Shown here: positions 13,108 to 52,651 of the stretch, one piece after another
How the letters are laid out: every line of letters starts with the position of its first letter
Numbering within the stretch: position 1 is the first letter of the stretch
Assembly: GCF_020524485.1 (NCBI RefSeq)
Contig: NZ_JAIVLF010000001.1
Span: 682,001-746,000 of the forward strand
Direction of reading: 5' to 3'
DNA length: 64,000 bases
Origin: Novosphingobium profundi
GTDB lineage: Bacteria > Pseudomonadota > Alphaproteobacteria > Sphingomonadales > Sphingomonadaceae
Notes under the pieces: generated by a model
Seen by the model: the letters and a program-made list of their open reading frames with translations, nothing else
What the model was told of the DNA's origin: nothing
Databases searched by the model: none
Translations under genes and position numbers: made by a program

Positions 13108-13110
13108 TCC

Positions 13111-14493
13111 GTGGCGGACCAGGGACATAGAGGCACCCCGACACCCCCGCCGCTGCTGGCGGGCGGGATCGACGGGATCGCCGGGGCCTTGGGCGAAGGC
13201 GGCGGCGAGGAGCTGTGGATCGAGGTCATCCAGCAGATGGATGCGGTCTATTCCGAGCTCGTGGAATCGCAGACCGCGCTCGAGGAGCAGCACCGCGAAC
13301 TGGGCGAGGCGCACGACTTCATCGGTTCCGTTCTCGATGCCATGACCGATGTCGTCATCGCCTGCGATGCCGAGGGGCACATCCTGCGCACCAACCGCGC
13401 GCTCGTGCGCATTCTGGGTGAGAGCGAGGAGGCGCTGCTGGGACGCGAGGTCGAGGCGCTCTTTGCGCCCGGCGAGCGCAAGGACGTCCATGCGGCGATG
13501 AACGAGGTGCGCGCAGGCACGCTGGTCGACCAGCGCGAATGGCACCTCCAGATGCCCGGCGGGGCGCTTGGCCTCATCTCCACCAACATCGCCCCGCGCC
13601 GCGAGGGAAGTGTGCGCTCCTGCGGCTTCGTCTTCGTCGGGAGGCCGCTGGGCGAACTGCAGCGCGCCTACCGCGAACTTGACGAGGCGCACAGCACGCT
13701 GAAGCGCACGCAGGAACAGCTTCTGATGAGCGAGAAGATGGCCGCGCTCGGCCGCCTTGTCGCGGGCGTCGCGCACGAACTCAACAACCCGATCAGCTTT
13801 GTCTTCGGCAACATGTACGCGCTCAAGCGCTACGGCGAGGCGATTGCGCGCTATCTTGAGGCGACGGGCCGCGCGCCCTCCGACCCCGAACTGGAGGCGC
13901 TGCGCACGCAGCTGCGCATCGACCGTATCCTGGAAGACATCGGCCCCCTCGTCGACGGGACGCTGGAAGGTGCCGAACGGGTGCGCGACATCGTCCAGGA
14001 CCTGCGGCGTTTCTCCTCCAACCAGGAGGAAACGCCCGAGACCTTCAATCTCACCCGGCTTGTGCGCACGGCGGCGGAATGGGTGGCCAAGGCCCAGCGT
14101 GCGCGGCCCGACTTCCACTTCGAGCTGCCCGATCCGCTCGACGTGACAAGCCGTAAGGGCCAGCTGCACCAGATCGCGGTGAACCTGATCCAGAATGCCT
14201 GCGACGCGCTGGAGGGCCGCGAAGCGGGCGAGGTGCGGGTGACCGCCTGGCGCGAGGGCGCGCTGGTCTACCTGGAGGTAGCGGACAACGGACCGGGTAT
14301 CGCGACCGCCAACCGCGACAAGATTTTCGAACCCTTCTTCACCACCAAGCCGATCGGTTCGGGAACGGGGCTTGGGCTCTACGTCAGCTACAATATGGCC
14401 GCAAAGCTGGGCGGGAGCCTCGCCTACGCTGAGAACGCGTCGGGGGGCGCTTCGTTCATCCTGGCGCTTCCGGCTGGCGAGGGCACGCCATGA
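13111..14493 (+). CDS. hupT: Sensor histidine kinase HupT/HoxJ
   Basis: This 460-aa soluble kinase starts with GTG three bases after hupR. A PAS-like domain (about 70-180) follows a short coiled region. The phosphoacceptor H222 lies in [14 protein letters not shown]. The ATP-binding domain has [19 protein letters not shown] and GSGTGLGLY. No membrane segment is visible, which fits a cytoplasmic kinase whose signal comes from the HupUV H2 sensor through the PAS region. The stop overlaps hupU by four bases. Confidence 0.93.
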
Positions 14494-15524
14494 CCCGGCC
14501 CGTGCGCCTGCTCTGGCTGCAATCGGGGGGCTGCGGGGGCTGCACGCTCTCGCTGCTTGGCGCGCAGGGGCCCGATCTCGTCTCGGCCCTGGAGCTGGCC
14601 GGGGTGGAGATCGTCTGGCATCCGTCGCTGAGCGCGGCCAGCGGGAGGGAGGCGCGCGCGCGGATCGAGGCGGTCGCCTCAGGCGATGAACCTCTTGATA
14701 TCTTCTGCCTCGAAGGTTCGGTGATGACGGGCCCCGATGGCACCGGCCTGTTCCACCGCATGGCCGGGACCGACGAGGCGATGATGCGCGTGATCGAGCG
14801 CGTGGCGCTGCGCGCGGACTATGTGCTTGCGGTTGGCAGCTGCGCGGCCTTTGGCGGAATTACGGCAGCGGGCGGCAACGAGGTCGGCGCGGTGGGGCTT
14901 GCCTACGACGGGCGCCAGGCGGGCGGCCTGCTGGGGCCCGACTTCCGTTCGGGCAAGGGCTTGCCGGTCATCAACATTGCGGGCTGTCCGATCCACCCCG
15001 ACTGGTTTACCCAGACCGTTCAGCAGATTGCGGCAGGGGTTTTTGATGAGCGCGATATCGACGAGTGGCAAAGGCCGCTCGCCTACACCGGGCATCTTGT
15101 CCACCATGGCTGCGCGCGCAATGAGTTTTACGAGTTCAAGGCCAGCGCGGAAAACCTGTGCGACATGGGCTGCATGATGGAGCATCTGGGCTGCAAGGGC
15201 ACGCAGGCGCGCGCGGACTGCAATATCCGTGCCTGGAACGGGTCGGGCTCCTGCCTTGATGGCAACTATCCCTGCATCAACTGCACCGCGCCGGGCTTCG
15301 AGGAGCCGGGCCATGAATTTACCCAGACGCCCAAGATTTCCGGTATCCCGGTGGGCCTGCCCACCGACATGCCCAAGGCCTGGTTCGTCGCGCTCGCCTC
15401 GCTGTCGAAGGCGGCCACGCCCGCGCGCCTCAAGGACAACGCCGCGCGCGACCGCATGGTGACGTTGCCGCGCGACAAGGCGCGGGATGCCGGTGGCGCA
15501 AAGCCGGGCAAGGGCAAGCAATGA
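14490..15524 (+). CDS. hupU: Regulatory (H2-sensing) hydrogenase small subunit
   Basis: This 344-aa small subunit of HupU/HoxB type begins directly at [18 protein letters not shown], so it lacks the long Tat signal of energy-converting small subunits and stays in the cytoplasm. Cysteines C15 and C18, a GCPIHPDW block and a C-terminal cysteine set provide FeS ligands. It pairs with hupV, whose start overlaps its stop. Confidence 0.94.
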   Translation: MTRPVRLLWLQSGGCGGCTLSLLGAQGPDLVSALELAGVEIVWHPSLSAASGREARARIEAVASGDEPLDIFCLEGSVMTGPDGTGLFHRMAGTDEAMMRVIERVALRADYVLAVGSCAAFGGITAAGGNEVGAVGLAYDGRQAGGLLGPDFRSGKGLPVINIAGCPIHPDWFTQTVQQIAAGVFDERDIDEWQRPLAYTGHLVHHGCARNEFYEFKASAENLCDMGCMMEHLGCKGTQARADCNIRAWNGSGSCLDGNYPCINCTAPGFEEPGHEFTQTPKISGIPVGLPTDMPKAWFVALASLSKAATPARLKDNAARDRMVTLPRDKARDAGGAKPGKGKQ

Positions 15525-16972
15525 GCGGGGAGGGCACACGCCTCATCATGGGGCCCTTCAACCGGGTCGAAGGCGATCTGGAAGTGCGCCTCGACACCAG
15601 TCTCGACACGGTGGTCAGCGCCGAGGTCTCCTCGCCGCTCTACCGCGGGTTCGAGCGCATGCTGGTGGGTAAGCCGGTCCACGACGCGCTGGTCTATGCG
15701 CCGCGCATCTGCGGCATCTGCTCGGTCTCGCAGTCGGTTGCGGCCGCGCGTGCGCTGGCAAGGCTCAGTCCCGCGGCCGTGCCCGAGGCGGGGGGCTACG
15801 CGGTGAACCTTGTCCACGCGGTCGAGAACCTGGCGGACCATTTTACGCATTTCTACCTCTTTTTCATGCCCGACTTCGCGCGCGAGGTGTACGCTAGGGA
15901 AGCCTGGTACGCGCCCATTGCGGCGCGGTTTCGCGCGATCAAGGGCAGCGCCGCGCGCGAGGCCTTGCAGGCCCGCGCCAGCTGGATGGAAATCATGGGG
16001 CTGCTGGCGGGCAAGTGGCCGCACACGCTCTCGATCCAGCCTGGAGGCTCGACCCGGGCGATCTCGCGGCCTGAGAAGGTCCAGGTGCTCACCCTCATCC
16101 GCCGCTTCCGTCAGTACCTGGAAACCACGCTCTTCGGGGACAAGCTGGAAGCCGTGGGCGAGCTGGCGAGCACCGAGGCTCTCCACGCCTGGAGCGAGGG
16201 GCGCAGCAGCGACTTCGCGCAGTTCCTCCAGGTGGCGCGCGCGCTGGAGCTGGACCGGCTCGGGCGTACCCGCAACGCGCATATGAGCTTTGGCGCCTAC
16301 GAACAGGGTGCAGGGCATCTCTTCGCGCAAGGGGTGTGGGTGGCAGGCGCGGTGCAACCGCTTGAGACCGCGTCCATCGCCGAGGACGTGAGCCACGCCT
16401 GGTACGCGCAGATGGCCGGTGCGCACGGGCCTTTGCGCGATGCGCCGGTGCCTGACGTGCAGAACGAGGATGCCTATTCGTGGTGCAAGGCGCCGCGCCT
16501 GGGCGGACAGGTGGTGGAAGTGGGCGCGCTTTCCCGCCTGCTCGTGGATGGCCACCCCCTCGCGCTTGATATGGCCCGAAAGGGCGGCCATGTCACCGCG
16601 CGCATCGCGGCGCGTATGCTCGAACTCGCGCTCGTCGTACCCGCGATGGAGGGCTGGATTTCCGCCATCGATCCCGATGCACCCTTCATCGACCACAGCG
16701 CGCTGGCCCCGGTCGGGGAAGGCGCCGGGCTGACCGAAGCCGCGCGCGGATCGCTGGGACACTGGCTGTGCGCGGACGCAGGGCGGCTTGACCACTACCA
16801 GATCATCGCGCCCACCACCTGGAACTTCAGCCCGCGCGATAGGCGCGGTGTTCCCGGCCCACTGGAGCAGGCGCTGGAGGGAACCCCGATCCGGCCCGGC
16901 GAAGAGGAGCCGGTCGCGGTGCAGCACGTGGTCCGCTCGTTCGACCCGTGCATGGTCTGCACGGTGCACTGA
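15521..16972 (+). CDS. hupV: Regulatory (H2-sensing) hydrogenase large subunit
   Basis: This 483-aa large subunit of HupV/HoxC type has RICGIC at 62-67 and ends exactly at DPCMVCTVH, with no residues beyond the final His. There is thus no cleavable extension, the diagnostic feature of regulatory hydrogenases, which mature without a protease. Together with HupU it signals H2 to HupT. The order hupT-hupU-hupV-hypF matches Rhodobacter. Confidence 0.95.
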   Translation: MSGEGTRLIMGPFNRVEGDLEVRLDTSLDTVVSAEVSSPLYRGFERMLVGKPVHDALVYAPRICGICSVSQSVAAARALARLSPAAVPEAGGYAVNLVHAVENLADHFTHFYLFFMPDFAREVYAREAWYAPIAARFRAIKGSAAREALQARASWMEIMGLLAGKWPHTLSIQPGGSTRAISRPEKVQVLTLIRRFRQYLETTLFGDKLEAVGELASTEALHAWSEGRSSDFAQFLQVARALELDRLGRTRNAHMSFGAYEQGAGHLFAQGVWVAGAVQPLETASIAEDVSHAWYAQMAGAHGPLRDAPVPDVQNEDAYSWCKAPRLGGQVVEVGALSRLLVDGHPLALDMARKGGHVTARIAARMLELALVVPAMEGWISAIDPDAPFIDHSALAPVGEGAGLTEAARGSLGHWLCADAGRLDHYQIIAPTTWNFSPRDRRGVPGPLEQALEGTPIRPGEEEPVAVQHVVRSFDPCMVCTVH

Positions 16973-19350
16973 TGGCGCGCGCCGCCGATCCTCTCACCGT
17001 GGATCGCAGTTACCGGACCTTGCGCGTTCGCGGACAGGTGCAGGCGGTCGGCTACCGTCCGTTCGTGTGGCAGTGCGCCCGCGCGCTCGGGCTGGCGGGC
17101 GATGTTGCCAACGATGGCGAGGGTGTTCTTGTGCGCGTCGCAGGCCCATCCGAGGCGCTCGACCATTTCGAGGCGCGTCTGCGCCACGAGGCTCCGCCGC
17201 TGGCCCGCGTTCTCTCAGTGGAGGTGCTGGGGACCGCGCCGTTCGCATGTGGCGAGGACTTCGCGATTGCGCGCAGTGGCGGTGGGGCCGTGACGACGGG
17301 CATCGTGCCCGATGCGGCCACCTGTCCGGCGTGCCGCGCCGAACTGCGCGATCCGGCCGACCGGCGTTATGGCTATGCCTTTGGCAACTGCACCCATTGC
17401 GGTCCGCGCCTCTCGATCATGTCCGCGCTTCCCTATGACCGTGCCCGTACCAGCATGGCCGACTTCGCGCTGTGCGAGGCTTGTGCGCGCGAATACGCGG
17501 ACCCAGCGGACCGGCGCTTTCACGCCCAGCCCATCGCCTGCCCCGCCTGCGGTCCCCGGCTGGAGTTGAGCGGAAAGGGGGAGGGCGCGCTCGATCCGCT
17601 GGCCGCCAGCGTGGACCTGCTGCGCAAGGGATGCATCGTCGCGATCAAGGGGCTGGGGGGCTACCATCTCGCCTGTCTCGCTTCAGATGCCGAAGTCGTG
17701 GCAAAGCTGCGCACGCGCAAGGCCCGTGATGCCAAGCCCTTCGCGGTCATGGTTCCCTCGCTCACAGCCGGGCGGGAGCTGTGCGAAGTGTCGGACGAAG
17801 CCGCGCAGGCGCTGGAGAGCCCGGCCGCGCCCATCGTCCTCCTGCCGCTTCGCCAGGACGGAGCCGCCTTGCCCGAGGGCGTGGCGCCGGGGCAGGATCA
17901 CCTGGGGCTCCTGCTGCCCTACACGCCGCTCCACCACCTCCTGATGGATGCGCTGCAGGCGCCTCTGGTCATGACCTCGGGCAACCGCAGCGACGAGCCG
18001 CAAGTGACCGATGATGGCGAGGCGCGCACGAAACTTGCCGGGATCGCCGACGCCTGGCTTGGCCATGACCGGGCCATCGTCAACCGCATCGACGACAGCG
18101 TGATGGCCTTTGATGCGCGCGGGCCCGTGGTCCTGCGCCGGGCACGCGGACTCGCGCCCGACCCGATCCTTCTGCCCGAAAGCCTCGCCGCGCCCGTGCC
18201 GATCCTGGCCATGGGGGGCGAGCTCAAGGCGACATTCTGCTTGCTGCGTGGGCGCGAGGCCGTCCTGTCGCCCCATATCGGAGATCTCGAGGACGCGGTC
18301 GCGCGCGCCGACTATCGGCGCATGCTCGACCTATTCTGCGATCTCTACGCTTTCACGCCGGGCGCCATCGCGGTGGACGGCCACCCGGACTATGCTTCCA
18401 CCCGGATCGGCAGGGCTCTGGCGCACGAGCGCGGCCTTCCGCTTGTCACCGTCGACCATCACCACGCGCACCTTGCGGCGTGTCTGGCCGAGAATGGCGT
18501 CGCGGCGGGCGAGACGGTCACGGCCCTTGTGTGCGATGGCCTTGGCCTTGGCGGCGATGGTACGCTGTGGGGCGGTGAGGTGCTGCGCGGTGGCTATGGC
18601 GAGGCCGCGCGGACCGGCGCGCTGCCCGCCGTGGCGCTTCCGGGCGGAGCGGCGGCGATGAAACAGCCCTGGCGCAACCTGCTCGCGCACCTCCGCCATG
18701 CCTTCGGGGACGAGTGGGCCGACGCGGTGCCATTGCTGGCCGAGCGCGTGCCCGCAGGACCATCGCGCCAGGTCCTGCAACGCGCCATTGCGCAGGGGCT
18801 CAACAGCCCGGTCTGTTCCTCGGGCGGGCGGCTGTTCGATGCGGTGGCGGCGGCGCTGGACGTGTGCGGGCCGAGCATCTCCCACGAAGGCGAGGCCGCC
18901 ATGGCGCTGGAGGCCGCGGCCCGACCTTTCGTGACTGGGGAGGCAGGCTATCCCTTTGCGCTCGCGCGCGATGCGGCGGGCCTTGCGCGGCTGGACTTCG
19001 CGCACCTGTGGCAGGCGCTGGCGCGCGATCTGGGCGCGGGCGTACCGGTCGGGCAGATGGCCGCGCGCTTCCACCTGGGGCTGGCCGATGCACTTGTCGC
19101 GTTGGCAGGCGCGGGGGAGGCGTCCTTATCCCATGGTCGGGTGGCGCTGAGCGGCGGGGTGTTCAACAATCGCATCCTGCGCGAGGCGGTGGCGCAGCGG
19201 ATTGAGGATGCGGGGGCTGTGCCCCTTGTCCATCGACGGGTTCCGGCAGGCGATGGCGGACTTTCGTTGGGGCAAGCGGCGGTGGCCGCGGCGCGGCTGA
19301 ACAGGGGCGAGATGATCGGGGACTGGCAGGAGGACACGGGGACATGCTGA
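16972..19350 (+). CDS. hypF: Carbamoyltransferase HypF
   Basis: This 792-aa enzyme transfers the carbamoyl group from carbamoyl phosphate to the HypE C-terminus. Domains in order are an acylphosphatase domain (VRGQVQAVGYRPFV near 18-32), two zinc fingers of CxxC pairs, a YrdC-like domain, and a Kae1-like domain with VDHHHAHLAACLAENG. The ATG at 16972 overlaps the hupV stop. An in-frame start at 16948 would lie inside hupV and is less likely. hypF is separated from the other hyp genes by the regulatory block. Confidence 0.95.
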   Translation: MARAADPLTVDRSYRTLRVRGQVQAVGYRPFVWQCARALGLAGDVANDGEGVLVRVAGPSEALDHFEARLRHEAPPLARVLSVEVLGTAPFACGEDFAIARSGGGAVTTGIVPDAATCPACRAELRDPADRRYGYAFGNCTHCGPRLSIMSALPYDRARTSMADFALCEACAREYADPADRRFHAQPIACPACGPRLELSGKGEGALDPLAASVDLLRKGCIVAIKGLGGYHLACLASDAEVVAKLRTRKARDAKPFAVMVPSLTAGRELCEVSDEAAQALESPAAPIVLLPLRQDGAALPEGVAPGQDHLGLLLPYTPLHHLLMDALQAPLVMTSGNRSDEPQVTDDGEARTKLAGIADAWLGHDRAIVNRIDDSVMAFDARGPVVLRRARGLAPDPILLPESLAAPVPILAMGGELKATFCLLRGREAVLSPHIGDLEDAVARADYRRMLDLFCDLYAFTPGAIAVDGHPDYASTRIGRALAHERGLPLVTVDHHHAHLAACLAENGVAAGETVTALVCDGLGLGGDGTLWGGEVLRGGYGEAARTGALPAVALPGGAAAMKQPWRNLLAHLRHAFGDEWADAVPLLAERVPAGPSRQVLQRAIAQGLNSPVCSSGGRLFDAVAAALDVCGPSISHEGEAAMALEAAARPFVTGEAGYPFALARDAAGLARLDFAHLWQALARDLGAGVPVGQMAARFHLGLADALVALAGAGEASLSHGRVALSGGVFNNRILREAVAQRIEDAGAVPLVHRRVPAGDGGLSLGQAAVAAARLNRGEMIGDWQEDTGTC

Positions 19351-20627
19351 ACGAACACGACCTCCGGCGGCGTATCGTCGGGGAAATGCACCTGCGGCGC
19401 TGGCCTCACGTCTGCGCGCCCTCCACGATCGTGCAGTTCGTGCGCGTGCTTGAACCGGACCAGCGCGAGGCCGAACTACGCTGCGTCGAGACGCTGCCCT
19501 CGGGCGGTGTCGCCGGGCGCAGCGAGAACCCTCGCCATCGCGCCGGATCGCTCGGCCCCGGCATTGCCTTTGGCTGGGAGCGCCAGAGCGAGGCCAGCAC
19601 GACGACGCTGTTCATCGACCGCCTGCTGGTGGACGGAGAGGGCAATTTCACGCCCGATCCGGCTGCACTGGAAGCGCTGAGCTGGGCCAAGGGGATGCCG
19701 GGCAAGGTCCTGCGTGCGATCCGCGTGCTGATCGTGCCGGACGAGGACGCCGCCCGCACGCTGATCCCGGCGATGGGCTACGACCCGCTCGACCTTGTGA
19801 GCTGCCATATCTCCTGCCAGGACGGCGAACAGGCCGCGCGGGTGTGGTCCGACTTCCGTTTTCGCGACGAGGGCTACGGCCAGATCCTGGTGGCGGCCAA
19901 CGGTATGGCGGGCGGCGATCTCTCGCGCTCGGTTCAGCGCCTGCAGGAACTGGGCAATTACCGCAATCTGGCGCTGCTAGGCCTGCCGGTGGCGCAGGAT
20001 GGCTGGAAGCTGCTGGACCGGATCGAGGATGAACTCAGCGATCTCACCTCGCAGGTCGCCGACCCTGCCGTGCGCGACGATGATCTCCTGAGCGAGGTCA
20101 CGCGCCTTTCAATGGAGCTGATCGCCCATTCGACCGAGACCGATTACCGCCTGAGCGCGACGCAGGCCTACGCCACCATCGTCGAGGACCGGCTGGAGGG
20201 GCTCCACATACGCGCCTGTCCGGGGCATCCCTCGCTCGCCGATTTTACCCAGCGCCGCTTCCTGCCCGCGGTGCGCACCTGCGCCGCGCATCGCCGCCGC
20301 GAGGAGCAGCTGGCCCAGCGCACCGAGCGGCTGGTCTCGCTGCTGCGCACCCGCGTCGAGACCCGCATCGAGAACCAGAACGGGCGCCTGCTTGCCTCAA
20401 TGGAACGCTCGAGCACGCGCCAGCTGCGCCTGCAGCAACTGGTCGAGGGCCTCTCGGTCGTAGCGCTCAGCTACTATGGGATCAGCCTCATCGCTCACAT
20501 GCTCGAAGGGGTGGAACTGCTGGCCCCGCACTTCCATGCACACCTTGTCGTAGCCGCGCTGACGCCGGTCATGGTGATCGGCATGTATCTGGGATTGCAC
20601 CACCTCAAGAAGCGCATCCTCGACTGA
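19344..20627 (+). CDS. DUF3422 family membrane-anchored protein
   Basis: This 427-aa protein belongs to the uncharacterised DUF3422 family. The body is soluble and rich in charged residues. A likely coiled region with many Arg/Gln residues (around 320-360) precedes two hydrophobic helices near 370-390 and 402-420, so it is probably anchored in the inner membrane by its C-terminus, resembling CorA-like architecture. Its start lies inside hypF (7-bp overlap) with an AGGAGG ribosome site at 19328-19333 within the hypF coding region. It is therefore co-translated with the hydrogenase maturation genes. The role is unknown. Confidence 0.8.
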   Translation: MLNEHDLRRRIVGEMHLRRWPHVCAPSTIVQFVRVLEPDQREAELRCVETLPSGGVAGRSENPRHRAGSLGPGIAFGWERQSEASTTTLFIDRLLVDGEGNFTPDPAALEALSWAKGMPGKVLRAIRVLIVPDEDAARTLIPAMGYDPLDLVSCHISCQDGEQAARVWSDFRFRDEGYGQILVAANGMAGGDLSRSVQRLQELGNYRNLALLGLPVAQDGWKLLDRIEDELSDLTSQVADPAVRDDDLLSEVTRLSMELIAHSTETDYRLSATQAYATIVEDRLEGLHIRACPGHPSLADFTQRRFLPAVRTCAAHRRREEQLAQRTERLVSLLRTRVETRIENQNGRLLASMERSSTRQLRLQQLVEGLSVVALSYYGISLIAHMLEGVELLAPHFHAHLVVAALTPVMVIGMYLGLHHLKKRILD

Positions 20628-20636
20628 GCACGGGCC

Positions 20637-22163
20637 TCAGGCCGCCGGGGCAGGTTTTGCGGCGCAGGTCCTGGCGATGAAGGTCGCATGGTCCGGCAGC
20701 CGCTCGGCGGCGCGGGCGAGCGTGGTGCGGCGCTGGTCGAGGAGGGCGCGCAGGTCCTTTTCAGGTAACAACCGGGTGCGCGGATTGACCGTGCGGGGCA
20801 GCACGCCTTGGCCCAGCATGATGGCAACCCAGCTGGGTTCCTGGTGCGATTCCAGATCGTACATCGGAACCCGGCCGCAGGCATCCCAGGCGTCGAGCTT
20901 GGCGCTAAGGGTGCCTGGCAGGTCCATCGCCGCGACCTGGCGCCAGAGCGGTTCGGTGCGGCGCGTGCGGCAGTAGTGGGCAATGATGAAGTCGCGGATG
21001 CGCTCGTATTCGAGCGCGGTCTGGCGGTTGTATTCGGCCGCCAGTGCGGGGTCGGGCACCTTGCCGGGCAGGAACTCGACGAGCCGGGTGACGCCGGTCT
21101 GGATCAGCTGGATCGCGGTCGATTCCAACGGTTCGAGGAAGCCTGCGGCAAGGCCGATGGCAATCACGTTGCCCTCCCAGAAACGGGAGCGGCGCCCGGG
21201 CGTGAAGCGCAGCAGGCGCGGTTCAGCCAGCGCCTCGCCGTCGAGACCATCCAGAAGCTGCGCGACGGCCTCGTCGTCCGAGATATGGGCGCTCGAATAG
21301 ACATGGCCGTTTCCGGTGCGGTTCTGGAGCGGGATGCGCCATTGCCAGCCCGCCTTCTTCGCCGTGGAGCGGGTGAAGGGCGTGAAGCGTCCCGCGCGCG
21401 CGCAGGGAACAGCGGCGGCGCGGTCGCAGGGAAGCCACTGGCTCCAGTCCTCGAAGCCGACGCCCTGCGCCTGGCCCAGAAGCAGGCTGGCAAAGCCGGT
21501 GCAGTCGAGGAACACGTCGCCCTCGACGCGCCGATCCCCGTCAAGCTGGAGGGCGCGCACATGGGCGCTCTGGCCATCGCGGGTGACATGTTCGATGTGC
21601 CCTTCGATACGTTTGACGCCCATGCCTTCGGCCAAGCGGCGCAGGTACGCGGCGTAGAGCGCAGCGTCGAAGTGGAAGGCGTGGCGGAACTGCGCGGCTT
21701 CGCCCGAAAGCGCTTCGTGCGGCACGAAACGATCCTGGGAGGCCAGCACCTCGGCCATGGAAAAGTCGCCCAGCGCCGGAACCTGACCCTCGCGGGCAAG
21801 GCGCAGCCAGTGCTGGTGGACGGGAAGCCCGGCAATATCGGCGCCGTAGTCGCCAAAGCCGTGGAAGTGGCGGTTGCCGATCTCGCCCCAGTTGGCGAAC
21901 TCGATGCCCAGCTTGAAGGTGCCGTTGGTGGCGGCCACGAACTCGGGCTCGTGGATGCCCAAAAACCGGTTGAGCTCCCCGATCAGGGGGACGGTCGCCT
22001 CGCCGACGCCGATGATGCCGATGTCCTCGGATTCGACGAGAGTGATCCGCGCGGCGGGAGGCGGGAGAAAACGAGCCAGTACCGCGGCCGAAATCCAGCC
22101 CGCACTGCCGCCTCCGGCAATGACGAAATGGACAGGCTGGGGTTCGGATCCGGCCATTGGCAT
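20637..22163 (-). CDS. Tryptophan-halogenase-family flavoprotein
   Basis: This 508-aa FAD-dependent halogenase-like protein (PrnA/RebH family) has the FAD-binding GGGSAGW near 17-23, the catalytic lysine position K84 in TFKLGIEF, the WQWRIP motif at 273-278 and the glutamate E347 in LEPLESTA. All residues thought necessary for halide oxidation and HOCl guidance are kept. The gene lies 71 bases downstream of a TonB receptor on the same strand. Such genes recur in TonB-receptor glycan loci of sphingomonads, Caulobacter and Xanthomonas, with no proven substrate there. Free tryptophan is not assumed to be the substrate. Confidence 0.88.
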   Translation of the reverse strand: MPMAGSEPQPVHFVIAGGGSAGWISAAVLARFLPPPAARITLVESEDIGIIGVGEATVPLIGELNRFLGIHEPEFVAATNGTFKLGIEFANWGEIGNRHFHGFGDYGADIAGLPVHQHWLRLAREGQVPALGDFSMAEVLASQDRFVPHEALSGEAAQFRHAFHFDAALYAAYLRRLAEGMGVKRIEGHIEHVTRDGQSAHVRALQLDGDRRVEGDVFLDCTGFASLLLGQAQGVGFEDWSQWLPCDRAAAVPCARAGRFTPFTRSTAKKAGWQWRIPLQNRTGNGHVYSSAHISDDEAVAQLLDGLDGEALAEPRLLRFTPGRRSRFWEGNVIAIGLAAGFLEPLESTAIQLIQTGVTRLVEFLPGKVPDPALAAEYNRQTALEYERIRDFIIAHYCRTRRTEPLWRQVAAMDLPGTLSAKLDAWDACGRVPMYDLESHQEPSWVAIMLGQGVLPRTVNPRTRLLPEKDLRALLDQRRTTLARAAERLPDHATFIARTCAAKPAPAA

Positions 22164-22234
22164 GATGCTCCCGTCAGAAGTCGGCCCCGACCTCTTCCTT
22201 GCGGAGAAAGCCGGGGCCTTGGGAGGAGCTGGTA

Positions 22235-25204
22235 TCAGAAGCGCGTGCGCACGACCATGGCGACGCGGCGGTCGGTCTCGGTCCAGCTGTAGCGCGGCTG
22301 GAAGCTGGGATCGCCCACGCGCAGGTACGTGCGCGAGGTGAGCAGGTTGGTGCCCTGCACGCCGACCTTGAGGTGCTCGTTCACGTTGACCAAGATCGAG
22401 GCATCAAGCTGGCCGTAGTCGTCGTTCCAGACCGGGTAGTTGATGTTCGCAGCCGACGTGGTCAGCAGGTACTTCTTGCGCCAGTTGTAGGCGACGCGGG
22501 CCGAAATGCCGGGCGTCTCGTAGATCGCGGCCACGTTGTAGGACCACTTCGAGAGGCCTTCGAGCGGCAGGTTGAGGCCTGCGTTCTCGCCGTTGGCGGT
22601 GTCGAAGACGTTGACCGAGGAGTTCGCGCCACCGGTCGAGTCGACGTAGGTCAGGTTGCCGGTGAAGCCCAGGCCCGAGAGCGGTCCGGGCAGGAAGTCG
22701 AGGAACTGGGTGTAGGCCAGCTCGAAGCCCTTGATCTTGCCCTTGGCACCGTTGGTCTGGCGGTTGACGTCGAAAGTGATCGTCTCGCCGCCGCTGGTGT
22801 ACTCCTGCTGCTCCAGGCCGACGAAGATGTAGTCGCTGATTTCCTTGTAGAAGAGCGCCAGCGTCAGGCTGTTCGAGCGGCCGTAGTAGTACTCGAAGCT
22901 GAGGTCGAAGTTGTTCGAGCGCGTGGGCTTCAGGTCCGGGTTGCCCGCGGTGCCGGTGAACGCGGTGGTCGCACCGCCCACGCCCGTGCCGTTGGGGTTG
23001 CCGTCGTTGTCGAACGAGAAGTTCAGCGAGGTGTAGGGGTTCAGCTGCGCGAAGGTCGGACGCGAGATGCCCTTCGAGGCCGCGAAGCGAACCTGGAAGT
23101 CGTCGGTCACGAAGTAGCGCAGGTTGAAGCTGGGCAGAACATCGGTGTAGCTGTTGCTGCCCGCGGTGATCGAAGTACCCAGATCGCCCGAGGCAAAGGC
23201 CATGGCGCTGTTGAAATCATCGCAGCTGGTCGCGACGGCCGGGTCACAGGTCGTCGAGATGGTGCCGACGTTGATCGCTGAACCCAGCGAATTGAGCTTG
23301 GTGTGGACTACCCGCACGCCCACGTTGCCGTCGAAGCGGCCGACCGGGCTGTAGTCCATGCCGAAGCGCGCCATCGCGTAACCCGCGAGCACTTCCTGGC
23401 CCTGATTGTTGATGCCGCCCTGGCCGGTGGTCTGCGAGAAGTCGTCGCTGAGCGGAGCCCAGCCCCAACCGTTGGAGAGCGTGGCGCCCAGGTAGTCGAA
23501 GGCATGGCCGGTGCCCTGGTTGACGAGGCTGGGTGCGGGCAGCCAGAGGCCCGAAGTCGGGTTGCTGGCTTCGCCGCGGAAGAAGTTGTTGAAGGGCACG
23601 AAGGTGGACTGGTTGGGCAGGTCCGCGATCTGCGGGCCACCCGGGTAGCCAGTCTCATCAAGGCGCACTTCGTTGCCCGGAAGCCAGTACTGGCCCGAAA
23701 GAAGGCCCCAGTTGTAGGTGGTCTGGCGCGTGATCGCGGTGCGGTCCGACCAGCGGCCGCCGACCTTGAGGGACTTCAGGAAGCCTTCGTCGAACTTGTA
23801 TTCGACATCGCCGCGGATCGCCCACTGGTCCGCCTCGTTGTCCTCGAGGTGGTCCATCGCGGCGGCCCACCAGTTCGCGCCCTTTTCGGCAAGCGACTGG
23901 GAGGGGTCGGTCGGACGCATGTTCATGTAGGGGGTGTTGCCGTCGAGGTCGAAGTCGAAGGTGGTGCCCACGTCCGTGCCGGTGAAGGCGGTCATCGAAT
24001 AGACGCTGGCGGTCGACTTCGAGTACTGGACATCGGCCGTGACGGTCCAGTGGCTGTCGGGCTCCCACAGGGCCTTGAACGAGTAGTCCTGGTTCTTCTT
24101 GTCCTGGCTGCCGGCGCGTGTGTCGAGCAGCGGCTGCTGGTTGTCGGCAACGCCCGACACAAGCTGGTTCTGTTCACCGTAGACGAAGCCCGGGGTCGAC
24201 GGGTCCATCTGGGTCGAATTGCCGATGTAGTATTCGGTGTCGCGCGGCTTGGCGGTCGAGATCAGCGCCTCGGCGGTGAACTCGAGCGTACCCGAGGGGC
24301 GCCACTGCAGCGAGGCGTCGAAGGCGCGGCGTTCCTGCTGCCAGTCGATGCGGCGGAAGCCGACCGAGTTGGGCACGTAGACCGTGTCGCCCGCGTTGTA
24401 GCCGTTCGCGTCGGTCGGCATCTCGCGCTGGAGGAAGCGGTCGGCCGAGATCGAGTCGGTGCGGTTGCCGATGTTGCTGATCGAGTAGGAAACGAGGACG
24501 CCGATTTCGCCCAGGCCCGTGTCGAAGCGGTCGCTGACGAGCGCGCTGCCCGACAGGAAGCTCTTGGAGCGCAGGTCCGCGTAGTTCACGTCGCCCGAAA
24601 CCGCAGCCACGAAGCCCGGCGCATCGAAGGGCTTGCGCGTGCGCAGGTCGATGGTGCCGCCGATGCCGCCCTCGATCATGTCCGCCGAGGGGTTCTTGTA
24701 GACGTCCACGCCCGACATGAGGTCGGCCGAGATGTCCTCGAACGAAAGCGAGTTGCCGCTGTTGGCCGAGAACACGTCACGGCCGTTGAGCTCGGAGCGC
24801 ACGAAGGAGAGGCCGCGAATGAAGACGCCGCCGCCTTCACCCGACAGACGCGCGGGATCGCGCGCCTCGCTGGTGCGCTGCAGGGTGACGCCCGGGATGC
24901 GCTGGAGCGCTTCGGAAACCGAACGGTCGGGAAGGGCGCCGATGTCCTGCGCGGTGATCGAATCGACGACGACTTCGGCGTCGCGCTTGCGGTCGATCGC
25001 GCTCTCGAGCGAGGCGCGGATGCCGGTGACGATGATCGCCTGCTCTTCGTTGAGCGTGGCTTCGGCAGGCGTGTCCGCCTCCTGAGCCGCGGCGAGCGCG
25101 GGCATGGCGCAGATCGCGAGTGCGGTCGCGGAGGTGCCTGCGCGCAGGAGCATATCCCCACGGATTCCGGTGAAACTGTTACGAATGCGAGTGAACGCTG
25201 CCAT
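22235..25204 (-). CDS. TonB-dependent outer-membrane receptor, glycan type
   Basis: This 989-aa receptor is probably the outer-membrane importer for xyloglucan oligosaccharides. It has a signal peptide ending near ALAAAQ, the segment EEQAIIVTGIRASL, a plug domain (IPGVTLQR, VFIRGLSFVRSELNG), a long beta-barrel and a C-terminal aromatic residue (RTRF), typical of this proteobacterial TonB receptor family. The ATG at 25204 is chosen over 25276 because AGGAGGG lies at the right distance. There is no SusD partner, as expected outside Bacteroidetes. A LacI-type operator lies 43-56 bases upstream. Confidence 0.92.
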   Translation of the reverse strand: MAAFTRIRNSFTGIRGDMLLRAGTSATALAICAMPALAAAQEADTPAEATLNEEQAIIVTGIRASLESAIDRKRDAEVVVDSITAQDIGALPDRSVSEALQRIPGVTLQRTSEARDPARLSGEGGGVFIRGLSFVRSELNGRDVFSANSGNSLSFEDISADLMSGVDVYKNPSADMIEGGIGGTIDLRTRKPFDAPGFVAAVSGDVNYADLRSKSFLSGSALVSDRFDTGLGEIGVLVSYSISNIGNRTDSISADRFLQREMPTDANGYNAGDTVYVPNSVGFRRIDWQQERRAFDASLQWRPSGTLEFTAEALISTAKPRDTEYYIGNSTQMDPSTPGFVYGEQNQLVSGVADNQQPLLDTRAGSQDKKNQDYSFKALWEPDSHWTVTADVQYSKSTASVYSMTAFTGTDVGTTFDFDLDGNTPYMNMRPTDPSQSLAEKGANWWAAAMDHLEDNEADQWAIRGDVEYKFDEGFLKSLKVGGRWSDRTAITRQTTYNWGLLSGQYWLPGNEVRLDETGYPGGPQIADLPNQSTFVPFNNFFRGEASNPTSGLWLPAPSLVNQGTGHAFDYLGATLSNGWGWAPLSDDFSQTTGQGGINNQGQEVLAGYAMARFGMDYSPVGRFDGNVGVRVVHTKLNSLGSAINVGTISTTCDPAVATSCDDFNSAMAFASGDLGTSITAGSNSYTDVLPSFNLRYFVTDDFQVRFAASKGISRPTFAQLNPYTSLNFSFDNDGNPNGTGVGGATTAFTGTAGNPDLKPTRSNNFDLSFEYYYGRSNSLTLALFYKEISDYIFVGLEQQEYTSGGETITFDVNRQTNGAKGKIKGFELAYTQFLDFLPGPLSGLGFTGNLTYVDSTGGANSSVNVFDTANGENAGLNLPLEGLSKWSYNVAAIYETPGISARVAYNWRKKYLLTTSAANINYPVWNDDYGQLDASILVNVNEHLKVGVQGTNLLTSRTYLRVGDPSFQPRYSWTETDRRVAMVVRTRF

Positions 25205-25246: not shown

Positions 25247-25260
25247 AGATAGCGCTATCA
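25247..25260. promoter_or_regulatory. LacI-type operator upstream of the TonB receptor
   Basis: AGATAGCGCTATCA contains a perfect 12-bp palindrome, GATAGCGCTATC at 25248-25259, with the central CG typical of LacI-family sites. It lies 43-56 bases before the receptor start and would overlap a plausible promoter (TTGCCG and TATCTA on the minus strand). Similar sites occur at 29752, 36138 and 43242. Confidence 0.7.
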
Positions 25261-25463: not shown

Positions 25464-26258
25464 TTAGCGATTATCGTCGTTGAGGGCCTGCGCGATTGCC
25501 GCTGCGGCAATCGGAGCCATGACCTCATAGCCCGCCGCGGTGGGATGGATGCCATCCTTCGTGAATGCCGGTTTCAGCAGACCCTTGTCGGTCTTCATCG
25601 CCGGGGCGTAGTCGGCGAAGGCGTAGCCGCGTGCGGCGGCAAGCGCGCGCAGCCGGGCGTTGATCGCGCGCAACTGGGCGGGCTTGCGTTCGGCCTCGAC
25701 CCACTGCGCCTCGGGCGTGTTGGTGACCGGCAGGATCGAGCAGAGCACGACCTTGATGCCGTGGCGCTCGGCGATGTCGGCCATCGCGGTGATGTTGCTG
25801 ACGATACCCTCGGTGGTCTCCACCTGAAGCATGCCCGAGACATCGTTGACGCCGCCCAGGATGACCACGGCGCGGGGCTTCAGGGCGACGACGTCCTGCT
25901 CGAAGCGAACCAGCATCTGCGCGGTGACCTGCGCGCCGATGCCGCGGTTCACATAGGGCTTGCCGGGAAAGAAGCGTTCGAGATTCCACAAGTCGGTGAT
26001 CGAATCGCCCATGAAGACAACGCGCTGTTCGCCCGGCGCGGGCGGTGCCAGCTTCGCGTTGGCGGGCGCGTAGAGATAGCGCTCACCGAAGTCGCGCATC
26101 ATGGAGGGGACCAGCTTGTCGCGGAATGGGCCGGCCCAGGGGCCCCAGTCGCGGGTCTCCTCGACGGTGCGGCGTTCCGGGCTCGACTGGTAGGGCGCGG
26201 GCTCGTCCGCCGCGATCAGGAGGGCCGCTCCGGCGACCAGCAGGCCAAGGCGCTTCAT
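25464..26258 (-). CDS. SGNH/GDSL-family esterase, secreted
   Basis: This 264-aa hydrolase has a short signal peptide (1-17). Block I is VVFMGDSITDLWN with S86, followed by GGVNDVSG and the catalytic DGIHP pair D235/H238. It is probably a carbohydrate O-acetylesterase that removes acetyl groups from xyloglucan side chains, but the substrate is inferred from context. The ATG at 26258 overlaps the preceding esterase stop (ATGA). The stop codon lies in a small ATCGC-TTA-GCGAT hairpin. Confidence 0.87.
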   Translation of the reverse strand: MKRLGLLVAGAALLIAADEPAPYQSSPERRTVEETRDWGPWAGPFRDKLVPSMMRDFGERYLYAPANAKLAPPAPGEQRVVFMGDSITDLWNLERFFPGKPYVNRGIGAQVTAQMLVRFEQDVVALKPRAVVILGGVNDVSGMLQVETTEGIVSNITAMADIAERHGIKVVLCSILPVTNTPEAQWVEAERKPAQLRAINARLRALAAARGYAFADYAPAMKTDKGLLKPAFTKDGIHPTAAGYEVMAPIAAAAIAQALNDDNR

Positions 26259-27253
26259 GCCGCGAAGACTCCGTGGCGCTGGCCGTAGGCGTAGAACAGG
26301 TCGGGCCAGGCGTGGGCGGGCGTGGCGGGATCGAGGCGCACGCCGAAGCCGTGACCGCCCTTGTCGAAGCCGTGGAATTCGCACGGGCGCTGCTGCGCGA
26401 GCATCGCCGAGTACATCGCGAGCGAATTCTGGATGGGCACGAGGCCATCGTCGCTCGCTGCGGTGAGGAAGACCGGCGGGGTGTCCGCGCCAACCCGGTT
26501 CTCGACCGAGGCGTATTTGGCATCCTTGGCGGGCGCCCCTTCGCCCAGCAGGTTGTCGCGCGACCCGGCGTGGGTGAAGGGTTCGGCCAGCGAGATGACC
26601 GGGTAGATAAGCCCGGCAAGGTCCGGGCGGGCGGAGACTTCGTCGATCGCGTCGAGCGGTGCATAGGTCTCTTCGGCAAAGCGCGTGGCGAGGCTGCCGC
26701 CCAGATGGCCGCCCGCCGAAAAGCCGAGCACGGCCAAGCGCTTCGGATCGAGCGCGAATTCGCTGGCGCGCGAGCGGATGATCCGCATGGCGCGCTGCGC
26801 GTCCTGCAAGGGCACGAGGGCGCGCTTGGCCCAGCCCTCTGCGGGAAGGCGGTAGGAGAGGATGAAGCAGGTGACGCCGCGCTGGGTCAGCCAGCGGGCC
26901 TGCTCCTCCCCCTCATTGTCCCAGGCGAGGAAGCCGTAGCCGCCGCCCGGGATCAGCAGTACCGCGGAACCATTGCGGTAGGCGGGCTGGCGCACCTCGA
27001 GCCAGGGCGTGCCGACGCCGGTCACGATGCGCTCATCGAAGCTGGGGTCCGTGCTCCCTTGCGAAACCTTGCGTTCGGGCAGGCGCGCAGGGGCCCCGGG
27101 CGCCTTCTTTGGCCAGAGCGGGATCGTCGGCCCCGAGGTGGTGATCGCCTTGGGGCCCGCGTGCGCGCTGCGGCTGCGCGCGGTGGCGGCCACGCCCAGC
27201 GCGGCGAGGCCGCCGAGCAGGGCCCGGCGCGAGGTGGCGGGGGAAGCAGTCAT
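26255..27253 (-). CDS. Alpha/beta-hydrolase esterase with Tat signal
   Basis: This 332-aa enzyme has a twin-arginine signal (SRRALLGG at 8-15) ending at SAHA, an oxyanion loop IPGGGYGF near 101-108 and nucleophile S179 in GFSAGGH. The DDGLVP acid and the KGGHGFG histidine follow. It resembles acetyl-esterases of the acetyl-xylan or BD-FAE group found in hemicellulose loci. A perfect AAGGAGGT ribosome site fixes the ATG at 27253. It is the middle gene of a GH3-esterase-SGNH operon. Xyloglucan or xylan acetyl groups are plausible substrates, not shown. Confidence 0.87.
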   Translation of the reverse strand: MTASPATSRRALLGGLAALGVAATARSRSAHAGPKAITTSGPTIPLWPKKAPGAPARLPERKVSQGSTDPSFDERIVTGVGTPWLEVRQPAYRNGSAVLLIPGGGYGFLAWDNEGEEQARWLTQRGVTCFILSYRLPAEGWAKRALVPLQDAQRAMRIIRSRASEFALDPKRLAVLGFSAGGHLGGSLATRFAEETYAPLDAIDEVSARPDLAGLIYPVISLAEPFTHAGSRDNLLGEGAPAKDAKYASVENRVGADTPPVFLTAASDDGLVPIQNSLAMYSAMLAQQRPCEFHGFDKGGHGFGVRLDPATPAHAWPDLFYAYGQRHGVFAA

Positions 27254-27267
27254 CGCGCGAGACCTCC

Positions 27268-29703
27268 TTATTCGGGGCAGACGGTTCCGGCCGGGTCGGT
27301 GGCGATGCGCATGTCCGAGATCGAGACCGCGAAGGGCGCCTTGGCCTTGAGCGCGAAGGGCTTGGTGATGCCGCCCAGGTACGTGCCATGCTGGCCGAAG
27401 CACTTGAGCGAGATCTTGAGCGAAGACCAGGTGCCCGGTTGCGCCAGCGCTTCGTCGATGCGCACTGTGCCCGAACCCAGCGAAAGCGTGACGGGGGCCG
27501 TCGGCACAGTGTCGAGGCGGTAGATCACCTCCACGTTCATGTCCGCATTGGCCTCGCGGTCGAGCTTGAGGTTGGGGCCATCGATGTTCATCTGCCCTTC
27601 GCCCGCCCAGTCGAGCCGGATCGCGCCTTCCTGGCGGTCGGCACTGTCGACGAGACGCTGCGAGACCGCGCCGTCGAGGCTCATCGTGAAGGGCTTCGCA
27701 AGAATACCATCGGCAATGTAGGTGCTCGAATTGGTCGCGCTGGCATCGATCCCGGGCTCCTCGCCGAGCGCGGGGACGTGGCCGCTCTTCGCATAGCTCA
27801 GACCATAGCCGAGCGCGAAGAGCGGGTCGTAGTCCGCATCGCCCGCGTTGAGGCGGAACTGGTCGGCGCGCTTGGGCCAGCTGAACGAGAGGGCGCCCGT
27901 GAAGTCGGTCGTACCGCCCACCAGAACGTCGGCCACACCGGCGCCTTCCGAGCCCGGATACCAGGCCGCGACAAAGGCGTCGGACTGGTTGATCTCGGGG
28001 TTTACCCAAAGCGGGCGGCCCGAAAGGAAGACCGAGACGGTCGGGATCCCGGCCGCCTTCAGCTTGGCAAGGAGCGCGAGTGCCTTCTTGTCGCCGGGCT
28101 GGAATTCGAGGCTGCGGATGTCCCCGCGAAGCTCCGCGTAGGGTTCCTCGCCGAAGACGACGATGGCGACATCGGGCTTCTGCGTGAAGCTGCCGTCGAC
28201 CGAGAGGGTGGCTGTGCCGCCGCCCGCTTCAAGCGCCTGTTCGATGCCGGCGTAGATCGAGGTTGCGCCCGGGAAATCGGCGTTGGTGTTGCCATCGCCC
28301 TGCCAGGAGAGCGTCCACCCGCCCGACTGACGGCCGATGTCGTCGGCTGCCTCGCCCGCGACGAGGACGTTGGCGCTCGACTTGATCGGGAGCACGCCTT
28401 CGTTCTTGAGGAGGACGAGGCTCTCACGCACGGCGCGCCGGGCAATCGCGCGGTGCTCGGGCGCGCCCATCACGTCCTGCCACTTGGCCTCGTAGGGGCG
28501 GGCCGTGTCGAACAGGCCCAGCTTGAACTTGATGCGCAGGATACGGCGCACGGCATCGTCGATGCGCGCCATCGGGATGGTGCCATCCTCGGCGTGCTTG
28601 AGAGTCGAGTTGAACAGGCCCTTCCAGCTGTCGGGCGCCATCGCCATGTCGAGCCCGGCGTTGAAGGTGTCGGGGCAATCGGTGTTGGTGCAGCCCGGAA
28701 TCTGGCCATGGCCGTTCCAGTCCCCCACGACGAAGCCGTCGAAGCCCATGCGGCCCTTGAGGACATCGGTGAGCAGGGCCTTGTTGCCGTGCATCTTGAT
28801 CCCGTTCCAGCTCTGGAATGAGGCCATGACGGTCATCGTGCCCGCATCAACGGCGGGCGGATAGCCTGCATCGTGGATGCGGATGAGGGTGTCCTCGTCG
28901 ACCTGGGTGTCGCCCTGGTCAATGCCCTCGGTGGTGCCGCCATCGCCCAGGAAGTGCTTGACGCTGGCCGAGACGCGGCCTGCCTGGACGGTGTTGGGGG
29001 TGCCGGGGGTACCCTGCAGGCCCTCGATCATCGGCGCGGCGTAGGCGGCGACGAGTGCGGGGTTTTCCGAATAGCCTTCGTAGGCACGGCCCCAGCGATC
29101 GTCCTGCGGCACGGCGAGCGTGGGCCCGAAGGCCCAGTGGATGCCGCTCGCGGCAGTCTCGGCGGCAGTGGCCCGGCCGATCTCGCGCATGAGTTCGGGG
29201 TCGTGCATTGCGCCAAGCCCGCTGTTGTGCGGGAAGAGCGTGGCACCCACGACATTGGAATTGCCGTGGACCGCATCGATGCCGAAGATGATGGGAATGG
29301 CGACGTGCCCCTTGCGCTTTTCCAGCGCGACCGCATCGAAGGCGTGGCTGGTGGCGATCCAGGGCTCGGCGGGTGAGCGGTCGGGCGCGCCAATCGGGGG
29401 CGAGTTGCCGCCTGCGAGGATCGATCCGAGCGGATATTCGCGCAGGTCCTCAGGCGTGATCGCGGCGGTGTCGGCCTGGATCATCTGGCCGACCTTCTCG
29501 CGCAGCGACATCTGCGCCATGAGCTTGGTGATCTTCGCCTCGATCGCGGGATCAATGAAGTCGGGGCTCTTGGCCGCGGGCCACTTTTCCGGGTGCACCG
29601 GAGTGGGCGCGGGGGCCTCGTCGCCAAGAGCAGGCTGGGCCAGCGCGAGCGCCGCGCAGGAACTGAGCGCAAACGCCTGCGCGATGCGGTTGAAACGCCT
29701 CAT
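27268..29703 (-). CDS. Glycoside hydrolase family 3 beta-glucosidase, secreted
   Basis: This 811-aa enzyme has a signal peptide of about 27 residues, a GH3 TIM-barrel and a C-terminal domain. The substrate motif KHFLGDGGTTEGIDQGDTQ and the nucleophile D328 in GFVVGDWNGHG are visible, and the region from 690 on looks like an extra beta-sandwich domain. It would release glucose from cello- or xyloglucan-derived oligosaccharides in the periplasm. The ATG at 29703 has GAGG upstream; longer in-frame starts would cross the operator. It is the first gene of its operon. Confidence 0.93.
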   Translation of the reverse strand: MRRFNRIAQAFALSSCAALALAQPALGDEAPAPTPVHPEKWPAAKSPDFIDPAIEAKITKLMAQMSLREKVGQMIQADTAAITPEDLREYPLGSILAGGNSPPIGAPDRSPAEPWIATSHAFDAVALEKRKGHVAIPIIFGIDAVHGNSNVVGATLFPHNSGLGAMHDPELMREIGRATAAETAASGIHWAFGPTLAVPQDDRWGRAYEGYSENPALVAAYAAPMIEGLQGTPGTPNTVQAGRVSASVKHFLGDGGTTEGIDQGDTQVDEDTLIRIHDAGYPPAVDAGTMTVMASFQSWNGIKMHGNKALLTDVLKGRMGFDGFVVGDWNGHGQIPGCTNTDCPDTFNAGLDMAMAPDSWKGLFNSTLKHAEDGTIPMARIDDAVRRILRIKFKLGLFDTARPYEAKWQDVMGAPEHRAIARRAVRESLVLLKNEGVLPIKSSANVLVAGEAADDIGRQSGGWTLSWQGDGNTNADFPGATSIYAGIEQALEAGGGTATLSVDGSFTQKPDVAIVVFGEEPYAELRGDIRSLEFQPGDKKALALLAKLKAAGIPTVSVFLSGRPLWVNPEINQSDAFVAAWYPGSEGAGVADVLVGGTTDFTGALSFSWPKRADQFRLNAGDADYDPLFALGYGLSYAKSGHVPALGEEPGIDASATNSSTYIADGILAKPFTMSLDGAVSQRLVDSADRQEGAIRLDWAGEGQMNIDGPNLKLDREANADMNVEVIYRLDTVPTAPVTLSLGSGTVRIDEALAQPGTWSSLKISLKCFGQHGTYLGGITKPFALKAKAPFAVSISDMRIATDPAGTVCPE

Positions 29704-29751
29704 GTCATCCTCGTCCAGAAATTCTTCGCGGGAACCGTAGGACATGCGGAA

Positions 29752-29765
29752 TGATTGCGCTACCA
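29752..29765. promoter_or_regulatory. LacI-type operator between GH3 and lacI
   Basis: TGATTGCGCTACCA is an imperfect palindrome centred on CG in the 139-bp divergent region. It lies 49-62 bases before the GH3 start and 78 bases before the LacI-family gene, so it could control both, including autoregulation. It shares the TGRTAGCGYTAYCA pattern with three other sites in the locus. Confidence 0.68.
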
Positions 29766-34950: not shown

Positions 34951-34999
34951 CGTGTCCTGCTCGCCCACGTCTATTCTCGTTCTTTTGCTTGGATGGTTT

Positions 35000-36137: not shown

Positions 36138-36151
36138 TGTTAGCGTTATCT
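36138..36151. promoter_or_regulatory. LacI-type operator between xylX and GH74
   Basis: TGTTAGCGTTATCT is an imperfect palindrome of the same family as the sites at 25247, 29752 and 43242. It lies in the divergent region 22 bases before xylX (minus strand) and 80 bases before the GH74 start (plus strand), so one repressor could control both operons. Confidence 0.68.
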
Positions 36152-43241: not shown

Positions 43242-43255
43242 TGGTAGCGTTACCT
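43242..43255. promoter_or_regulatory. LacI-type operator upstream of GH29
   Basis: TGGTAGCGTTACCT is a near-palindrome with a central CG, 67-81 bases before the GH29 start. It fits the pattern of the other three sites and gives the fucosidase/second GH35 unit its own control point behind the hairpin at 43055. Confidence 0.7.
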
Positions 43256-52553: not shown

Positions 52554-52602
52554 GGCAGGCAATGTCCTGTGTCGCAGGCTATCGGGAAGTGCGAAAAAGG
52601 GG

Positions 52603-52646
52603 CGGGGTGGCCGGGCGCGGGACGTGTCCTGTGCCCGGCCACCCCG
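52603..52646 (-). terminator. Intrinsic terminator after the phosphate-locus TonB receptor
   Basis: A 14-bp perfect stem pairs 52603-52616 with 52633-52646 around a 16-nt loop. On the minus strand it is followed by CCCTTTTTCGC, giving a five-T run. It starts six bases beyond the receptor stop and lies before phoD, so phoD expression would need readthrough or its own promoter. Confidence 0.8.
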
Positions 52647-52651
52647 GATCG

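Follow-up and report, generated by a model that had tools for sequence, protein, structure and literature searches.

The window analysed here, a stretch of 64,000 nucleotides from Novosphingobium profundi, carries an intact flavin-dependent halogenase (FDH) gene of the Pfam family PF04820 that is under purifying selection, and the constant partner of this type of enzyme is a TonB-dependent receptor (TBDR), not an aromatic-bearing glycan. FDHs of this type belong to loci for xyloglucan and xylan-like glycans, and equally to loci for alpha-glucans and for fructan or sucrose. The papers found by searching gave no description of a halogenase-receptor module. Modification of the receptor precursor by the FDH in the cytosol is tentatively favoured as the explanation. 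The genes of the operon and the associated operator-like sites are as follows.

20637-22163, minus strand: FDH (PF04820) of 508 residues, assigned by Pfam profile and motifs
22164-22234, minus strand: 71-bp gap between the receptor and FDH genes, with a GC-rich hairpin without a T run (fold z -1.64, weak)
22235-25204, minus strand: TBDR (TIGR01782) of 989 residues, first gene of the operon (672.5 bits against a cut-off of 310)
25247-25260, unstranded: palindromic operator-like site AGATAGCGCTATCA ahead of the TBDR gene, with the perfect word GATAGCGCTATC at 25248
29752-29765, unstranded: operator-like site between the GH3 and LacI genes (12 of 14 letters)
36138-36151, unstranded: operator-like site ahead of the GH74-type gene (11 of 14 letters)
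43242-43255, unstranded: operator-like site ahead of the fucosidase gene (10 of 14 letters, a score that alone is at chance level)

The Pfam Trp_halogenase profile PF04820 matched residues 13-467 of the FDH (E 2.5e-169, profile positions 2-457 of 458). The Lys84, Glu347 and WxWxIP positions named in the original prediction were all confirmed, the motifs being located at residues 17-23 (GGGSAGW), from residue 83 (FKLGI, containing Lys84), at residues 273-278 (WQWRIP) and from residue 344 (EPLEST, containing Glu347). K84, E347, W273 and W275 were invariant in an alignment of 14 sequences, and across the group Lys84 was conserved in 156 and Glu347 in 158 of 165 FDHs (approximately 95%, with five distant FDHs excluded). 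Values of dN/dS relative to Novosphingobium sp. BW1 were 0.084 for the FDH, 0.05 for GH3, 0.062 for DUF3422, 0.106 for SGNH, 0.208 for BD-FAE and 0.224 for the TBDR; a decayed enzyme was set aside in view of the intact motifs in combination with the FDH value. The gene is the sole full-length PF04820 match of its own genome (4.64 Mb, 15 contigs), in which two further matches covered only about 65-75 profile positions at 20 to 27 bits. Three flavin reductases are encoded in the same genome, none of them adjoining the FDH gene.

The highest-scoring solved structures for the FDH were Xcc4156 (PDB ID: 6y1w, 458 bits), BrvH (PDB ID: 6frl, 439 bits) and 9luq (434 bits), and lower scores of about 210-255 bits were obtained for RebH, PrnA, PyrH and Thal (about 240 bits for RebH and PrnA). 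FDH residues 416-500, which encompass the lid region, aligned to BrvH without gaps, suggesting a short lid of the BrvH/Xcc4156 type, and the RebH alignment ended at residue 428, ahead of the lid, which argues against a long lid of the RebH type. Free tryptophan was set aside as the probable substrate on the basis of this early end of the RebH match. The window FDH, a new member of a family already known, is best explained as a functional BrvH/Xcc4156-type halogenase. Use of the fold for a different flavin reaction (release of peroxide or hypohalite, or hydroxylation), with no stable halogenation, would be in keeping with group members that have no known native product (PMC7336383, available portion). 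However, Lys84 and Glu347 are retained in about 95% of the group and the relatives BrvH and Xcc4156 do halogenate, according to the accessible parts of PMC5945002 and PMC7336383, and such a reaction is considered very unlikely.

The FDH is the second gene of its operon, with the TBDR gene upstream on the same strand at a distance of 71 bp, in agreement with the earlier placement of the halogenase in one operon with a TonB receptor. The gap is too short to encode more than about 23 residues. Its hairpin, which was equalled in folding by 16 of 200 shuffled sequences, could tune the expression of the second gene. Between 20500 and 25500, no sigma-70-like promoter was found and the three terminator-like matches equalled the level in shuffled sequence. 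For alignments, the receptor was called from position 25153 instead of 25204.

Allowing up to two mismatches, the operator word was matched eight times in the window against an expectation of 1.9, and none of 100 shuffles reached eight. Several of these matches fall within genes, and the shared operator is therefore to be regarded as a prediction. The perfect palindrome at the receptor gene, together with the weaker related words at the GH3/LacI, GH74 and fucosidase genes, makes a shared LacI regulon likely; the receptor-halogenase operon and the glycan genes are thus likely to be under common LacI control, as predicted from these sites. The original prediction of an operator common to the halogenase and the glycan genes was upheld in this form, with the perfect word at 25248 and related words at 29752, 36138 and 43242. 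The genes of the glycan locus are listed below.

25464-26258, minus strand: GDSL/SGNH esterase
26255-27253, minus strand: BD-FAE-like esterase
27268-29745, minus strand: GH3 glycosidase
29921-30937, plus strand: LacI-family regulator
30944-31777, minus strand: aldose 1-epimerase
31780-33177, minus strand: sugar porter of the MFS type (XylE-like)
33242-34114, minus strand: SMP-30/gluconolactonase family protein
34165-34968, minus strand: D-xylose 1-dehydrogenase (NF053674, above cut-off)
35000-36115, minus strand: FAA-hydrolase family enzyme
36370-38505, plus strand: GH74-type xyloglucanase, matching solved xyloglucan hydrolases
38505-40136, plus strand: GH35-like enzyme (NCBIfam GH35 just under cut-off)
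40215-43040, plus strand: GH31 alpha-xylosidase with PA14
43368-44975, plus strand: alpha-L-fucosidase (PF01120)
45049-46647, plus strand: second GH35-like enzyme

From this enzyme set, which includes the GH74, GH31, GH35-like and fucosidase genes, the glycan was assigned as probably xyloglucan, possibly fucosylated. A TBDR, an endo-xyloglucanase, side-chain glycosidases, a transporter and a regulator were found together, as expected of a xyloglucan CUT or PUL whose glycan is deduced from its enzymes. The halogenase does lie within a glycan locus, as had been claimed, namely a predicted LacI-regulated xyloglucan gene set. The gene order GH3, BD-FAE, SGNH, TBDR, FDH is conserved in Novosphingobium sp. 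BW1 (FDH 92% identical) and in N. endophyticum (FDH 73% identical), the latter carrying a second, tandem FDH with 50% identity to that of the window. Second tandem FDHs were observed behind the first in the xyloglucan-locus relatives L259 (9491-11038) and L064 (10260-11801); the window and BW1 have one FDH each at this locus. The locus is adjoined by a nickel-iron hydrogenase cluster (10535-19350) comprising the hydrogenase subunits (14490-16972), HypF (16972-19350), a sensor kinase and a sigma-54 response regulator. A DUF3422 protein gene (19344-20627; BW1 copy 95.6% identical) is convergent with the FDH gene, and a PhoD-like phosphatase gene, accompanied by a separate TonB-dependent receptor gene and no FDH, was located at 50931-54949.

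The recurrence of the receptor-halogenase pair was assessed in 100 stretches of 6 to 20 kb fetched from other genomes, each surrounding an FDH, and TBDRs were located in them by tblastn. These loci were a non-random sample, consisting of 46 and 14 loci from two match listings and 40 picked by hand from a third, seven of which (L201-L207) were deliberately distant. In this non-random sample, 82 of the 100 loci had a TBDR at most 600 bp from an FDH, and 91 had one within 2.3 kb. In the 82 near pairs, the TBDR was upstream on the same strand in 64 cases, divergent in 10, convergent in 5 and downstream in 3. Near receptors were lacking at five of the seven distant loci (L201, L202, L203, L206 and L207) and present at two (L204 and L205); the other four loci without one were the exceptions L107, L120 and L175 and the 6.1-kb contig L198. 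The L175 FDH was missed by our own gene calling and found by tblastn. A second, equally non-random set was made up of 80 named loci that ranked highest among the matches listed (Alpha-, Beta- and Gammaproteobacteria), and here a TBDR was found within 600 bp in 60 loci, within 2.3 kb in 68, beyond 2.3 kb in 6 and anywhere in the stretch in 74. The six named loci in which no TBDR was found (L290, L292, L313, L328, L331 and L333) include some short contigs. Conservation of the pair across genomes, which the original prediction had put forward as a check, is therefore positive, with receptors within 600 bp in 82/100 and 60/80 loci. Arrays of four FDH genes beside a single receptor were observed at L099, L110, L112, L113 and L122.

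The genome of the window contains 93 TonB receptor plug domains over cut-off, as compared with its one full-length halogenase. From these 93 domains and about 4400 genes, a number estimated from genome size, approximately 4% of genes would adjoin a receptor by chance; since neither locus set was random, this value served as a rough yardstick and not as a test. Hitch-hiking, in which the FDH is unconnected with the receptor and the two occur together through joint inheritance of glycan loci, is regarded as highly improbable, because adjacency far exceeds the rough 4% expectation across differing enzymes and receptor types and the FDH is under purifying selection. In its favour, GH97 co-occurs with the FDH nearly as well as the receptors do, and no FDH is present at L239, the maltodextrin-type locus in the genome of the window.

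The glycans and receptors of the loci varied. Domain counts across the 100 loci were 49 for LacI, 43 for GH13, 28 for GH97, 18 for GH3, 7 for GH74-like, 6 each for GH31 and GH43, 5 each for GH29 and GH9 and 4 for GH32, the gene-cluster names in these counts resting on one or two scanned representatives each. Among the receptors were the TIGR01782 type, another type found in GH32-containing loci, and OMP_b-brl_4 receptors. Wall phenolics are not expected to come along with starch- or sucrose-type glycans. The occurrence of FDH-TBDR pairs in alpha-glucan and GH32 loci therefore weakens the earlier suggestion that a phenolic or indolic wall compound enters with the glycan, as same-family FDHs adjoin receptors in GH13/GH97, GH32 and GH43 loci. 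Import of wall phenolics was accordingly set aside as a source of a general FDH substrate. For the window itself, action on such an imported compound would suit a locus that targets a plant-wall glycan, but the pair is also present in GH13/GH97 and GH32 loci and, of the locus genes that were scanned, none was recognised as a gene for aromatic catabolism, leaving this possibility with very little probability.

At least one of four companions, Cupin_8, DUF6445, SapC and TPR-2OG, was present in 35 of the 100 and 28 of the 80 loci, with counts in the 100 loci of 16, 15, 9 and 5, respectively. These FDH companions are oxygenase-like and cytosolic in appearance. The order TBDR-SapC-Cupin_8-FDH is repeated in more distant proteobacteria (L183, L193, L195 and L197). 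Signal-peptide-like starts were detected in 10 of 175 FDHs, in 58 of 88 receptors and in none of 45 companions (16 Cupin_8, 15 DUF6445, 9 SapC and 5 TPR-2OG), using a crude hydropathy test that detects only these 58 of the 88 receptors. As the FDHs and companions mostly do not have such starts, they probably act in the cytosol, and modification of the receptor precursor in that compartment is tentatively favoured for the same reason. The recurrence of the companions, together with the lack of a signature residue in the receptors, could also indicate that the FDH modifies not the receptor but a different target linked to its function, either another protein of the cytosol or a component of the envelope, such as one that SapC handles. 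This alternative appears unlikely; the window and most loci are without the companions, so the FDH works in their absence.

Of the candidate targets, the receptor precursor is considered the likeliest because the receptor is the constant partner, the alignment assigns the substrate site to the open type, and a peptide-tryptophan brominase, SrpI, exists. SrpI is described in the available part of PMC10858898 as a flavin brominase with a catalytic Lys84 that acts on tryptophan of a ribosomal peptide and needs a proteusin leader. In the proposed mechanism, the FDH would stay in the cytosol, where a general flavin reductase would supply it with reduced FAD, and hypohalous acid would be generated, probably with a preference for bromide as reported for relatives. 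The receptor precursor would then be halogenated on an exposed aromatic side chain prior to export and folding, as the open substrate site of a BrvH/Xcc4156-type FDH could take a peptide chain. Different receptors would present different acceptor residues, perhaps close to the sugar-binding site, which would fit with the retention of a separate FDH at each locus, and the halogenation might affect sugar binding. In a wider form, the FDH, Cupin_8, DUF6445, TPR-2OG and SapC would be interchangeable cytosolic sets that chemically mature glycan-importing TonB receptors, with proteobacteria halogenating, and perhaps hydroxylating, receptor aromatics; this generalisation is possible but doubtful.

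The main rival to the receptor precursor is an aromatic compound free in the cytosol, for example a derivative of indole, with the product serving as a signal or an anti-competitor weapon and the receptor link reflecting common regulation. The active site of the FDH is intact, and the nearest studied relatives brominate indole or its derivatives (PMC5945002 and PMC7336383, accessible text). BrvH, which has a solvent-exposed site, brominates indole and not tryptophan, and the authors of that work question whether indole is its native substrate (PMC5945002, in the part available); for BrvH and three Xanthomonas enzymes, native substrates are stated to 'remain unknown' in the corresponding part of PMC7336383. 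Against a free aromatic, indole is thus doubted as native even for BrvH, and many loci hold their own FDH, some in tandem, copies that a common small product does not need. Furthermore, the window genes scanned with Pfam (10.3 to 58 kb) included none that could be recognised as part of anything like a natural-product pathway. A free indole-like substrate is held to be rather unlikely.

Modification of the receptor was also examined by comparing receptor sequences. No aromatic residue was near-universal in 91 FDH-linked and rare in 21 unlinked receptors, in a comparison that is blind to acceptors differing between receptors and to an FDH acting in trans. Two of the unlinked receptors, L239_4 (encoded at the maltodextrin-type locus in the genome of the window) and L246_3, fall inside linked clades and retain the full set of conserved Trp/Tyr/Phe columns of these clades (7 and 10 columns, respectively). 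The Trp content of linked and unlinked receptors was equal, and Tyr was lower in linked receptors. In favour of receptor modification, the distances in 30 loci with all four genes correlated more strongly for FDH and receptor (r 0.63) than for regulator and receptor (0.43) or GH13 and receptor (0.41); against it, the value for FDH and regulator was 0.67, and that for FDH and receptor fell to 0.31 over 90 loci.

Across 296 genomes of the order, an FDH (E 1e-100) was present in 147 of 151 genomes with either of two receptor types, compared with 39 of 145 without. However, it was also present in 128 of 135 GH97 genomes, so that GH97 tracks the FDH nearly as the receptors do and genome-level co-occurrence cannot separate the receptor from the locus. 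The maltodextrin-type receptor occurs in four genomes that lack an FDH at E 1e-100, and in the window's own genome the maltodextrin-type locus L239 (C8:3000-15000; MFS, LacI, TBDR, GH13, GH13, GH97) has no FDH beside its receptor; an adjacent FDH is therefore not an absolute requirement, unless the enzyme acts in trans. In contrast to L239, many relatives do have an FDH beside the receptor of their maltodextrin-type locus. A smaller comparison, in which the receptor was detected at E 1e-40 in 10 of 19 FDH-positive and 0 of 19 FDH-negative genomes, was not leaned on because of the GH97-type confound and the unlike make-up of the two sets (positives, 13 of 19 from the window's genus and four genera in total; negatives, 15 genera). 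Modification of an outer-membrane component, the other idea of the original prediction, appears to fit better than an imported phenolic, but direct support for it was not obtained from the sequence tests.

It is the adjoining sugar receptor, rather than a natural product, with which the genomes connect the FDH. Should the FDH act on the receptor, a large outer-membrane protein would be halogenated by an enzyme, a kind of protein modification new for bacteria that would affect sugar uptake, and receptor-maturation sets would provide the orphan BrvH/Xcc4156 class with a native substrate. Literature on FDHs or tryptophan halogenases in connection with TonB receptors, SapC, xylan or PULs was searched, and the pair was not found described in the portions available, although it may stand in subscription papers, such as the 2019 Xanthomonas campestris B100 halogenase paper cited in PMC8269204, or in other places. 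The matching papers PMC11337851, PMC7333567 and PMC3377617 concern other subject matter, and the pair was not found in the accessible parts of PMC7142613, PMC8269204 and PMC12615548. The word TonB is absent from the text of PMC7336383 (Xcc4156) and PMC5945002 (BrvH), and 'halogenase' was counted zero times in the available text of PMC1790865 (CUT loci) and of PMC8245568 and PMC4285296 (xyloglucan).

Among known systems, Xcc4156 and BrvH are of the same family as the window FDH and have the same catalytic Lys and Glu, with an alignment to BrvH that is gapless across the lid. RebH, PrnA, PyrH and Thal share the fold family and the catalytic motifs but differ in their lower scores. The long lid of RebH over its substrate, which binds the amino and carboxyl groups of tryptophan (PMC5945002, as far as available), appears to have no counterpart in the window FDH. 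SrpI, a RiPP enzyme likened here by description, is flavin-dependent and has a catalytic Lys84 as does the window FDH, the proteusin leader requirement being a feature of SrpI (PMC10858898, available part). The locus as a whole resembles the CUT and xyloglucan utilization loci of Proteobacteria, in which a TBDR, glycosidases, a transporter and a regulator are likewise found together (PMC1790865, accessible portion), and has the GH74, GH31 and GH35-type set in common with xyloglucan loci.
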